DNA from: Synechococcus sp. CBW1004
Lineage (GTDB): Bacteria; Cyanobacteriota; Cyanobacteriia; PCC-6307; Cyanobiaceae
Assembly: GCF_015840715.1 (NCBI RefSeq)
Contig: NZ_CP060397.1
Location: 2,252,686 to 2,316,685 of the forward strand
Reading direction: 5' to 3'
DNA length: 64,000 nucleotides
Shown: positions 11,545-19,307 of the stretch, piece after piece
How positions within the stretch are numbered: the stretch's first letter is position 1
Layout of the letters: the number at the start of each line of letters is the position of its first letter
Made by a program: the position numbers and the translations under genes
The notes under the pieces: generated by a model
The model's input: only the letters and a program-made list of their open reading frames with translations
What the model was told of the DNA's origin: nothing
The model's database searches: none

Positions 11545-11649
11545 TCCGGCGCGACTCTAGAAGCGGCGTCCCGTTCGGCCTTCCGCCCTCCGCCGCGCCC
11601 CTGGATGGCCGCCTGAGGCTGAGACAATGCACCCACAGGGCGAACGTTG

Positions 11650-12624
11650 ATGGCTGCCAACGGTTACCGCGACTACTTCAAGGTGCTCGGAGTGGAGCGC
11701 GGTGCCGACGCCGACGCGATCAAGCGCGCCTTCCGGCGCCTGGCACGGCAGTACCACCCTGACGTGAACCCCGGCGACAAGGATGCTGAGGCTCGTTTCA
11801 AGGAGGTCAGCGAGGCCTACGAGGTGCTCTCGGATCCCGACAAGCGGCGTCGCTACGAGCAGTTCGGGCAGTACTGGAACCAGGTCGGCGGTCCCGGAGG
11901 CGGCGCCGGGGTTGATGTCGACTTCGGCCGCTACGGCAACTTCGACGACTTCATCAACGACCTGCTGGGCCGCTTCGGTGGTCCCGGCGGCGGTGGCTTC
12001 GCCGGCTCTCCGGACGGGTTCGGCTTCGGCAGCGGCTTCCCCGGCGGGTTCTCCGGCTTCGGTGGCCCCGGTCCGGCGCGGCCGGTGAATCTCGACGCCG
12101 AGGCCACCCTCAGTCTCAGCTACACCGACGCCTTCCGCGGCTGCGAGCGCACCCTGGCCGTCAACGAGGAGCGGGTGCAGGTGCGCATCCCCGCCGGCGT
12201 CAAGGACGGGAGCCGTCTGCGGCTCAAGGGAAAGGGCAACCTTCAGCCCGGCACCGGCCGGCGCGGTGACCTCTATCTCACCCTCAAGCTGCAGCCCCAT
12301 CCCATCTGGCGGCTCGATGGCGACCAGCTCCGCGCCGAGCTGCCCCTCAGCCTCGATGAACTGGCCCTCGGTGGCGATGTGCGGGTCGCCACTCCCGATG
12401 GGGAAGCCACCGTGCAGGTGCCCCCCGGCATGAGCCTTGGCCGCAGCCTGCGGCTCAAGGGCAAGGGCTGGCCCCTGCGGGATGGCCGTGGTGATCTGTT
12501 GCTCACGCCCACCCTCCGGCTGCCCCAGGCCCTCAGTGAGCAGGAGCGCCAGCTGCTGGAGCAGCTGCGCCAGGCACGCAGCGCCGATCCACGGGAGGGC
12601 TGGGCGGCCGCGGCGCGTCTCTGA
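11650..12624 (+). CDS. dnaJ: DnaJ/CbpA-type co-chaperone
   Basis: A 324-residue Hsp40. The J domain fills residues ~5-70 with the HPD motif ([10 protein letters not shown]), then a Gly/Phe-rich linker (about 85-145), then two C-terminal substrate-binding beta domains ([19 protein letters not shown] and [19 protein letters not shown]). There is no zinc-finger, so it is a class B/CbpA-like protein. The ATG at 11650 directly follows a TTG at 11647 that could also start. It recruits and stimulates DnaK. The gene order with the next gene (52-base gap) is not obviously functional. Confidence 0.92.
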
Positions 12625-12676: not shown

Positions 12677-13786
12677 ATGGAACGAGCACGGCGGTCATGG
12701 CGCCTGGGTCGCTGCGTTCTGGGCCGGCTGCTCCTGTCGCTCGTCCTGAGCCTCTGCCTGATGGGTTTCGCCCCTGCGGCTCAGGCGTTACCGACGGCGC
12801 GTGCCGAGTCAGCGGCTGCCGCGGCGCCCGCCACACCGGACGATCCCCTGACGGTGCGGGTGGGGCTGCATGTGCGCAACATCTATGGCCTGTCCCTGCA
12901 CGAGCAGACCTTCAAGGCGGATGGCTGGTACTGGCTGAAGGTGCCGCCGGCGGTGCTGGCGCTGATGAACAGCCGTGGGATCAGCCCCAAGGACATGGTG
13001 GAGTTCGTCAACCAGGTGGACAACTGGGATGGGCTGATCGAGCTGCTCGACGAGGAGCAGCCACCGCTGCAGGACGGGTCGCGTCTGTTCTCCTTTCGCT
13101 TTGCAGCCAACTTCTATGTCAATGAGATCGATCAGCGCCGCTCCCCGTTCGAGTCGATCCGGCTGCCGCTGATTCTCGAAACCGATGCCGACTCCTTCGC
13201 CGATCCGGCCTCGCGGGTCCGGCTTCTGCCGGAGTCCGGCAGCCGCGGGCTGCTGGGGGATTACAGCAGCATCTACGGCTATCAGCTGCGCGGGGTGCGG
13301 GTACGGGCGGCCGATCACGCCTATCCCACCGCCTTCGGCAAGGATTCGGATCAGACCTACAGCCGCGTCGAGATCTGGGTGGAGTACAGCCCCGATCCCT
13401 GGGCGATGTTCACCCAGTGGATCCTGCCCCTTCTGCTGGTGATGTGCCTGGTGCTGCTGGCGCCGACCCTTGAGGGCACGCTGGGGGACGCCAGGCTGGC
13501 CATTCCGCCCACGGCGCTGCTGACGCTGGTGTTCATGCAGCAGTCCTACAAGGCGGAGATGCCACCCACCTCCTATCTCACCTTCCTCGATCAGCTCTTC
13601 ATCTATGGCTACGTCGTCTCGGTGGGGCTGTTCGTGCTGTTCCTCTGGGGCAGCAACCAGATGGAGGCGGCCAGCGAGGATCAGCGCGAGCGGGTGATGC
13701 GACGCATCAACCGCGTCGATGTCCGCTCTCAGGTCGCGGCGCTGATCGGTTTCGTCCTGGTGGCCCTGATCGCCTGGTACCGATGA
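12677..13786 (+). CDS. pentameric ligand-gated ion channel homologue (Cys-loop superfamily)
   Basis: A 369-residue protein with a signal peptide (about 1-38), a beta-rich extracytoplasmic domain (about 55-240) and four transmembrane helices near 244-262, 274-291, 301-324 and 351-367. The layout and motifs fit prokaryotic pLGICs: W-x-W (DGWYWLKV), a Cys-loop-like segment without cysteines (IDQRRSPFESIRLPL, compare the conserved aromatic-Pro-Phe-Asp), Pro251 in M1, and MPPTSYLTF before M3, comparable to the LPKTPYMTY segment of GLIC. Ligand and ion selectivity are unknown. The frame is open upstream, but ATG 12677 gives the signal peptide directly. Confidence 0.75.
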   Translation: MERARRSWRLGRCVLGRLLLSLVLSLCLMGFAPAAQALPTARAESAAAAAPATPDDPLTVRVGLHVRNIYGLSLHEQTFKADGWYWLKVPPAVLALMNSRGISPKDMVEFVNQVDNWDGLIELLDEEQPPLQDGSRLFSFRFAANFYVNEIDQRRSPFESIRLPLILETDADSFADPASRVRLLPESGSRGLLGDYSSIYGYQLRGVRVRAADHAYPTAFGKDSDQTYSRVEIWVEYSPDPWAMFTQWILPLLLVMCLVLLAPTLEGTLGDARLAIPPTALLTLVFMQQSYKAEMPPTSYLTFLDQLFIYGYVVSVGLFVLFLWGSNQMEAASEDQRERVMRRINRVDVRSQVAALIGFVLVALIAWYR

Positions 13787-13833: not shown

Positions 13834-14835
13834 ATGGAGCTCACCTACCGTCCGCGGCGGCTGCGGCGCACCCCTGCCCTGCGGGCCCTGGTGCGCGAGC
13901 ACCATCTCGCTCCCACCGACTTCATCTACCCCCTGTTCGTGCATGAGGGGGCGACCAACGAGCCGATCGGCGCCATGCCCGGCGCCAGCCGGTGGAGCCT
14001 CGAGGGCCTGGTGGATGAGGTGGGCCGCGCCTGGGATCTGGGCATCCGCTGCGTCGTGCTGTTTCCCAAGGTGGCCGACGGTCTCAAGAGCGAGGACGGC
14101 GCCGAGTGCTTCAACGAGCACGGCCTGATCCCGCGGGCGATCCGCCGCCTCAAGGAGGTGCATCCCGGCATGGCGATCATGACCGACGTGGCGCTCGACC
14201 CCTATTCCTGCGACGGCCATGACGGCATCGTCTCGGCCGAGGGCGTGGTGCTCAACGACGAGACCGTGGAGATCCTCTGCCGTCAGGCGGTCGCCCAGGC
14301 CCGTGCCGGCGCCGATCTGATCGGCCCCAGCGACATGATGGACGGTCGCGTCGGCGCCATTCGCGAGGCCCTCGATGACGAGGGCTTCGAGCACGTGGGG
14401 ATCATCAGCTACACGGCCAAGTACGCCAGCGCTTACTACGGTCCTTTCCGCGAGGCACTCGATTCGGCCCCCCGTGCCGCCGCCGGCAAGCCGATCCCCA
14501 AGGACAAGAGCACCTATCAGATGGATCCGGCCAACGGTCGCGAGGCGATCCTCGAATGCCAGCTCGACGAGAGCGAGGGGGCCGACATCCTGATGGTCAA
14601 GCCCGGCCTGGCCTATCTCGACATCATTCATCGCCTGCGCCAGGCCAGCGAGCAGCCGATCGCCGCCTACAACGTCTCGGGCGAGTACGCGATGGTGAAG
14701 GCCGCCGCCGAGCGCGGCTGGATCGATGAGCGGGCGGTGGTGCTCGAAACGCTGCTCAGCTTCCGGCGGGCCGGAGCGGATCTGATCCTCACGTATCACG
14801 CCTGCGACGCAGCCGCCTGGTTGCGGCAGGGCTGA
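13834..14835 (+). CDS. hemB: delta-aminolevulinic acid dehydratase (porphobilinogen synthase)
   Basis: HemB joins two 5-aminolevulinate molecules to porphobilinogen, the shared precursor of chlorophyll, haem and bilins. The 333-residue sequence shows both active-site lysines (YTAKYASAYYGPFR and ILMVKPGLAYLD) and the metal-loop region MTDVALDPYSCDGHDG, which lacks the three-cysteine zinc site and so is of the magnesium-dependent type. Length is normal. It follows the channel homologue by 47 bases on the same strand. Confidence 0.97.
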   Translation: MELTYRPRRLRRTPALRALVREHHLAPTDFIYPLFVHEGATNEPIGAMPGASRWSLEGLVDEVGRAWDLGIRCVVLFPKVADGLKSEDGAECFNEHGLIPRAIRRLKEVHPGMAIMTDVALDPYSCDGHDGIVSAEGVVLNDETVEILCRQAVAQARAGADLIGPSDMMDGRVGAIREALDDEGFEHVGIISYTAKYASAYYGPFREALDSAPRAAAGKPIPKDKSTYQMDPANGREAILECQLDESEGADILMVKPGLAYLDIIHRLRQASEQPIAAYNVSGEYAMVKAAAERGWIDERAVVLETLLSFRRAGADLILTYHACDAAAWLRQG

Positions 14836-16946: not shown

Positions 16947-17040
16947 TGCGGGTGGGGTTGGCCGGTGAACCTCGCCATGGCCGGCTTCTCCGCCCGACGG
17001 GAGGCAGCTTGCTCCATGCCGTGGATCCTGTCCAGGGGAC

Positions 17041-17250
17041 TTCCATTTCGAGGACCCGGCCGCAGTCGATGCGGGCCACGACCAGCTGGAGGCGACCGGC
17101 GATCCCATCGGCCCGCTGCATGACCATCGCGACGGCACCGCCTCCTCCTATCTGCAGGATCCGGAGGGCAACTGGCAGGAGGTGCACGACGAGCCTGCCT
17201 GCGGCGTTCCCGCCAACACCGGTGAGGATCCGATTCCCTTCGGTCGATGG
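17041..17250 (+). pseudogene. glyoxalase/VOC gene remnant (C-terminal half)
   Basis: About 70 codons that align without gaps to the C-terminal half of the intact VOC gene at 18831-19307: FHFEDPAAVDAGHDQL here against FHLEDRAAVDAVHGQL there, and HDHRDGTASSYLQDPEGNW against HDHRDGTASFYLQDPEGNW. The N-terminal half and any start codon are missing. It is in direct orientation to the intact copy, with the DUF4143 ATPase gene between them. Confidence 0.85.
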
Positions 17251-18830: not shown

Positions 18831-19307
18831 ATGCAGGCCGTGCGCCGTCCCGCCATGGCTCCAGCCCCCCACCGCGCAGAGCCCGCCGTTCATCGCCTCG
18901 GCCATGTGGCCCTGCGGGTGACCGACATGGAACGGGCCAAGGCCTTCTACACCGCCCTCGGGCTGCGGCTCACCTGGGATGCGCCCGACTGGGCCTACCT
19001 GCAGTCGCCGGTCACCGGCGATGGTGTGGCCCTGCTCAGCCCTGAGTACAAGGCGGCGGGTCCCCATTTCGCCTTCCACCTTGAGGACCGCGCCGCTGTG
19101 GATGCGGTGCATGGCCAGCTCGTGGCCAGCGGCCATCCGGTGGGCCCGGTGCACGATCACCGCGACGGCACCGCCTCCTTTTATCTGCAGGATCCGGAGG
19201 GCAACTGGCTGGAGGTGCTCTATGAGCCCCCCGCAGGCATTCCCACCAACACCGGCGAGGCGCCGATCGCCTCGCTCACGCCAGCCAGGGACGGCGTTTG
19301 CGGGTGA
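18831..19307 (+). CDS. VOC/glyoxalase-family protein
   Basis: A 158-residue single vicinal-oxygen-chelate domain. It begins VHRLGHVALRVTDMERAKAFYTALG, contains FAFHLEDRAAVD, and ends with HDHRDGTASFYLQDPEGNWLEVLYEP, where His and Glu residues are the usual metal ligands. Substrate cannot be told; lactoylglutathione lyase, dioxygenases and resistance proteins share the fold. ATG 18831 or ATG 18855 could start it. Its stop overlaps GTG 19304 of mutS2 by three bases, suggesting coupling. A C-terminal remnant of the same gene is at 17041. Confidence 0.85.
   Translation: MQAVRRPAMAPAPHRAEPAVHRLGHVALRVTDMERAKAFYTALGLRLTWDAPDWAYLQSPVTGDGVALLSPEYKAAGPHFAFHLEDRAAVDAVHGQLVASGHPVGPVHDHRDGTASFYLQDPEGNWLEVLYEPPAGIPTNTGEAPIASLTPARDGVCG

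Follow-up and report, generated by a model that had tools for sequence, protein, structure and literature searches.

Nerve cells use channels of the pentameric ligand-gated channel (pLGIC) superfamily as neurotransmitter receptors. The closest described bacterial systems include the proton-gated GLIC (Gloeobacter violaceus), the amine-gated ELIC (Erwinia/Dickeya), sTeLIC, and DeCLIC. The 2016 survey by Jaiteh et al. (PMC4795631) gives the proline at the tip of the β6-β7 loop as 100% conserved in the superfamily; two further conserved residues, an arginine before M1 (94%) and an aspartate in the Pro-loop (93%), form a salt bridge. The survey also states that no biological role was known at that time for any microbial pLGIC. 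Mutation of the arginine left ELIC not activated and GLIC not expressed; mutation of the aspartate abolished activation in both (PMC4778918). Tasneem et al. 2004 (PMC549065) list pLGIC sequences from Synechococcus and Methylococcus, and describe PBP-I domains fused to alpha-proteobacterial members and PBP-II neighbours that stand alone. A Synechococcus sequence also appears in Jaiteh et al. 2016 (PMC4795631).

The window analysed here is a whole stretch of 64,000 nucleotides from Synechococcus sp. CBW1004. A 196-bp stretch is duplicated in it at 81% identity (17040-17234 and 19073-19267); the second copy overlaps a glyoxalase-like gene (18831-19307), and the upstream copy lies on the far side of an ATPase-like gene. 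The gene under study has the following features.

12677..13786, + strand: pLGIC homologue gene; ATG start, 369 amino acids plus stop, open frame
12677..12787, + strand: predicted signal peptide, residues 1-37; by inspection, basic n-region, hydrophobic core, and AQA site near residue 37
12848..13393, + strand: extracellular (periplasmic) β-sandwich ligand-binding domain, residues 58-239; β strands at 59-239 in the AlphaFold2 model
13124..13159, + strand: Pro-loop (Cys-less β6-β7 loop) EIDQRRSPFESI, residues 150-161; from alignment, P157 invariant
13391..13393, + strand: pre-M1 position, Pro239; from alignment, arginine in nearly all pLGICs (GLIC R192, ELIC R199)
13397..13468, + strand: M1 helix, residues 241-264, with conserved kink proline P251; AlphaFold2 model and alignment
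13475..13558, + strand: M2 pore helix, residues 267-294; AlphaFold2 model and alignment
13583..13669, + strand: M3 helix, residues 303-331; AlphaFold2 model
13685..13780, + strand: M4 helix, residues 337-368; AlphaFold2 model

The window gene encodes a bacterial relative of the nerve-receptor channels; the family is known, but the branch in which the gene falls is large and little described. The first-pass annotation had proposed a pentameric ligand-gated channel homologue, and both profile and fold agree with this. With a single sequence, the best PDB match was ELIC (phmmer, E 8e-9, residues 52-335). A profile of 61 relatives found GLIC, ELIC, and GLIC/GABA-A chimeras at E values of 1e-14 to 4e-18 (hmmsearch), and a family profile gave E values of about 1e-15 for the PDB entries of ELIC and GLIC. 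When the window protein and its nearest relative were left out of a family profile, the window protein still scored 417 bits, against 4.6 for the best of 1000 shuffles. The AlphaFold2 monomer model has a mean pLDDT of 88 and a pTM of 0.81. Foldseek matched the model to GLIC at E 1e-20. In VIA the Z scores were 22.0 for GLIC, 21.8 for sTeLIC, 21.5 for GluCl, and 21.4 for ELIC; the alignments covered 280-290 residues, at 2.6-3.6 Å. GABA-A subunits were also among the best fold matches (Z 21-22). These matches span residues 53-369 of the model, and the predicted fold is that of GLIC, sTeLIC, and ELIC across the mature chain. The signal peptide, β-rich domain, and four helices noted earlier are seen by inspection of the translation and in the model, where residues 2-30, in the signal peptide region, form a helix. 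The segment IDQRRSPFES, described before as Cys-loop-like, occupies residues 151-160 and carries the superfamily-invariant proline as P157. The disulphide-forming cysteine pair of the animal Cys-loop receptors is absent, with no cysteine in or beside residues 140-170. The M2-M3 segment, likened earlier to that of GLIC, aligns to ELIC free of gaps.

Each of five residues is present in 109/109 branch members: P157 at the Pro-loop tip, P251 in M1, R273 (0'), L282 (9'), and P296 in M2-M3. The Pfam pLGIC model fails to recognise the window protein (Neur_chan_memb, E 0.34), and at a threshold of 0.01 it matches only 4 of the 61 relatives; the branch is therefore easily missed in annotation. Matches of the window protein to the NCBIfam LGIC models are also far under their cut-offs. 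Comparison with a 70%-identical relative gave a dN of 0.22 and a dS of 0.81 (dN/dS about 0.27), and this purifying selection indicates that the gene is kept by selection.

M2 positions were set by the ungapped ELIC alignment and the GLIC numbering (PMC5760087): D271 is -2', R273 0', P277 4', T279 6', L282 9', F286 13', Q288 15', and P296 23'. The branch has a signature in this helix, consisting of an acid at -2' with R0', P4', T6', L9', F13', and Q15', and its bearers span picocyanobacteria, Myxococcota, Gammaproteobacteria, and Verrucomicrobiota. M2 invariance in one alignment (A2) is partly circular, its loci having been fetched with an M2 pattern. The count was repeated on 46 close relatives found by a whole-protein search in which the M2 motif was unused. 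In these, R0', P4', L9', and Q15' are invariant, and the other positions are nearly so (T6' 44/46, F13' 45/46, D or E at -2' 44/46). More distant cyanobacterial pLGICs keep T6', L9', and Q15', and mostly P4'. It had been pointed out that the pore helix differs from the usual GLIC-type sequence; this is true, yet the difference is common to the whole branch, and IPPTALLTLVFMQQSY is the local form of the branch signature rather than an oddity of the window protein. The acid at -2' (D/E) is found in 106/109 branch members. In GLIC the equivalent E222 is the key selectivity residue and acts as a cation filter (PMC5760087). Since Asp271 corresponds to E222, cation selectivity as in GLIC is predicted, and is favoured over the altered selectivity suggested earlier. 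The histidine at 11' (GLIC H235) is absent; the window protein has Leu284, and all 46 close relatives have Leu or Met.

The ionic bridge between the binding domain and the pore is missing. Its two positions are Pro239 and Glu159 in the window protein. A pre-M1 basic residue (R/K) is present in only 8 of 109 branch members, versus an arginine in 11/11 other bacterial relatives, and an acid at the Pro-loop place in 60/109, versus 11/11. The aromatic-Pro-x-Asp motif of the Pro-loop is also absent from the window protein, which has Ser-Pro-Phe-Glu instead of Phe/Tyr-Pro-x-Asp. The ELIC/GLIC arginine falls on the Pro239 column in three independent alignments (phmmer, hmmsearch, and the branch alignment). 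The two partners of the bridge have decayed jointly, and this favours a genuine change of coupling over an alignment slip. In the profile alignment, the third triad partner, GLIC D32, aligns to L74, and Leu is found there in 43/46 close relatives. Position 89 is Val in the window protein and its closest relative, and Trp in 105/109 branch members. The arginine/aspartate pair is a trait within the superfamily, not its definition. Single mutations in GLIC and ELIC say that the pre-M1 arginine cannot be lost, but the branch members are mostly without it; about 100 natural homologues lacking this residue offer a handle for probing the coupling mechanism.

Of 250 genomes of the order, 76 carry homologues, as do 16 of 34 genera; named relatives come from Cyanobium, Synechococcus, Vulcanococcus, Myxococcota, Halieaceae, Methylococcales, and Akkermansiaceae. 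No copies were found in viral contigs (IMG/VR). The genome itself has a second pLGIC paralogue (G000:C1:1113245-1114222, L002), which is 28% identical and falls in a separate, well-supported clade; in place of the Pro-loop acid, all 19 members of that clade have Thr, Met, Leu, Val, or Ile. Domain fusions were considered for some relatives with open frames of at least 800 amino acids, and rejected; in these the frame reads through upstream and adds no domain. Several other proteins may be noted here. A third, very divergent pLGIC-like group occurs in Synechococcus-family genomes (L145:3708-4784, L144:3726-4877, and L149:3700-4761, all on the - strand); its members have an RYPFD loop, but their second helix, SRDDLILAAVVSAGGNYVFIAGNLP, is atypical. 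In one further protein (L154:3373-4578, - strand), a pLGIC-like extracellular domain precedes a membrane part that looks degenerate and lacks the usual pore motif. By eye, the Myxococcota channel proteins L054, L055, and L056 have lipoprotein-signal-like N-termini (e.g. LAGFSC, LAGFAC), which are unusual for a pLGIC.

A sister clade with a support of 100/100 spans four phyla, with members from marine Synechococcus, Myxococcota, Halieaceae, and Verrucomicrobia. A gene for a UrtA-type periplasmic binding protein adjoins the channel gene in 23 of the 27 sister-clade loci, versus 0/53 other loci (Fisher p 3e-16).

L059:4469-5998, L055:4373-5809, L073:7011-8387, and 20 more loci: stand-alone UrtA-type genes next to a pLGIC gene

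The neighbours match TIGR03407 (E 1e-131 to 1e-154) and Peripla_BP_5, and share 50-81% identity with the UrtA of the genome from which the window comes. The gene for that UrtA is located in a urea-transporter region, next to a ureG-like gene (urtB, urtC, and ureG named by inspection). Neither UrtB nor UrtC was found in the sister-clade loci, so the pair is not a transporter operon. Lipobox-like cysteines are visible in the UrtA-type proteins of L055 and L059. The pairing suggests that the sister clade may sense urea or an amide; no pLGIC with a urea-binding partner was found in the literature. For the window protein, a urea- or amide-like ligand is only a lead, the best one available, and is taken by analogy from these neighbours. 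The recurrent pair provides a first candidate ligand, which is testable in culturable marine Synechococcus such as WH7803. It is possible, with the odds well against the full account, that a multi-phylum branch couples without the ionic bridge, that part of it forms a two-gene urea/amide sensor in which a UrtA-type lipoprotein would hand the ligand to the channel, and that the window protein is a stand-alone descendant whose locus has been exchanged between strains for other receptor lineages.

The window gene itself stands in a slot between two other genes.

11647..12624, + strand: dnaJ-type gene, conserved flank on the left of the slot; identified by its sequence, ends 52 bp upstream
13834..14835, + strand: hemB (δ-aminolevulinate dehydratase), conserved flank on the right of the slot; starts 47 bp downstream

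The same strand and the tight spacing, in an arrangement that recurs in 13 of 80 loci, might suggest that the gene product works together with haem synthesis or with the DnaJ chaperone. Among the 40 genomes of the genus with hemB, dnaJ and hemB are adjacent in 39/39 where both could be placed, with or without a gene between them. The slot receptor gene is intact in 6 genomes, decayed in 4 (stops or frameshifts in G010, G037, and G588, a remnant in G186), and absent from 30, in which the dnaJ-hemB gap is 51-337 bp. Identity of the slot genes to the window protein is 41-48% (73% for one), versus 85-95% for hemB and 72-88% for dnaJ at the amino acid level. They represent four receptor lineages in different strains and are mixed in the trees with genes from other places; most relatives of the window gene are located elsewhere. 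Slot genes were joined in 0% of bootstrap trees. Simple descent from one ancestral slot gene was rejected, a single clade having an AU test p of 3e-42 for a slot group that was chosen after the first tree had been seen. Either different receptors replaced each other in the slot, or strains lost different copies of an old tandem array. The empty slots speak against a functional link to hemB or dnaJ, as do the different receptor lineages, and hemB is uninformative on function. A partnership with haem synthesis or DnaJ is therefore already largely refuted and hardly credible; the adjacency to hemB remarked on earlier holds, with no functional meaning visible in it.

Homology and fold extend over the whole core of the superfamily, the pore helix is conserved, and the gene is under purifying selection. 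Its product is probably one subunit of a pentameric ligand-gated channel in the inner membrane of a picocyanobacterium of the Cyanobium/Synechococcus group, with a probability of about 0.72. Five copies would form a ring, and a small periplasmic molecule would bind the β-sandwich domains; binding might turn M2 and open a pore gated near the L9' and F13' rings, and cations would pass the ring of aspartates at -2'. Frequent loss or breakage of the gene in close relatives counts against the channel reading. The first-pass annotation had also raised a non-channel sensor, that is, a non-conducting protein of pLGIC fold in which coupling of binding to the pore is lost and which signals by conformation or through partner proteins. 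The loss of the ionic coupling pair in the branch, a pair needed for activation of ELIC (PMC4778918), speaks for this explanation. As loss of the arginine abolishes ELIC activation and GLIC expression (PMC4778918), conduction here cannot be assumed. However, no part of the protein is more conserved than the pore helix, including the -2' acid and positions 6', 9', and 13', which face the pore by the GLIC/ELIC alignment, and a non-conducting sensor has no need of such residues. The protein also has no attached signalling domain, and no conserved signalling partner lies beside the window gene. The match of the -2' acid to the selectivity glutamate of GLIC favours a cation channel over a non-channel sensor, and the latter is retained as an unlikely rival.

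Instead of serving as a receptor for a small organic ligand, the channel might be constitutively leaky or, like GLIC, gated by pH. GLIC is the closest fold match and is proton-gated, and both proteins are cyanobacterial. However, the GLIC histidine at 11' is replaced by Leu284 here and by Leu or Met in the branch, and channel genes of the sister clade adjoin one for a small-molecule binding protein; a leaky or pH-gated channel is distinctly improbable.

The Synechococcus and Methylococcus sequences of Tasneem et al. (PMC549065) and Jaiteh et al. (PMC4795631), belong to the same superfamily, come from the same kinds of organism, and probably represent the same branch. The passages on them describe neither loss of the pre-M1 arginine as a branch trait nor a UrtA-type partner. 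The sTeLIC and DeCLIC share the fold, with a Z score of 21.6 for 6v4a, a pLGIC with an additional N-terminal domain; the window protein is about 16% identical and is without such a domain. GLIC has in common with the window protein the whole fold, the Cys-less Pro-loop, the -2' acid, the 0' and 9' pattern, the M2-M3 proline, and a simple architecture without extra domains, at about 19-20% identity. Its Arg192, H235, and Y-P-F-D loop motif are absent from the window protein, in which the pore has P4', F13', Q15', and Q16'. ELIC, the best PDB match of the single-sequence search, shares the fold and the ungapped M2-M3 alignment at about 22% identity, and itself keeps the Asp122-Arg199 bridge. Coupling must differ in detail from that in GLIC and ELIC, because their ionic bridge has no counterpart in the branch. 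The gene is ordinary for the superfamily, and the branch holds more interest than the gene itself.
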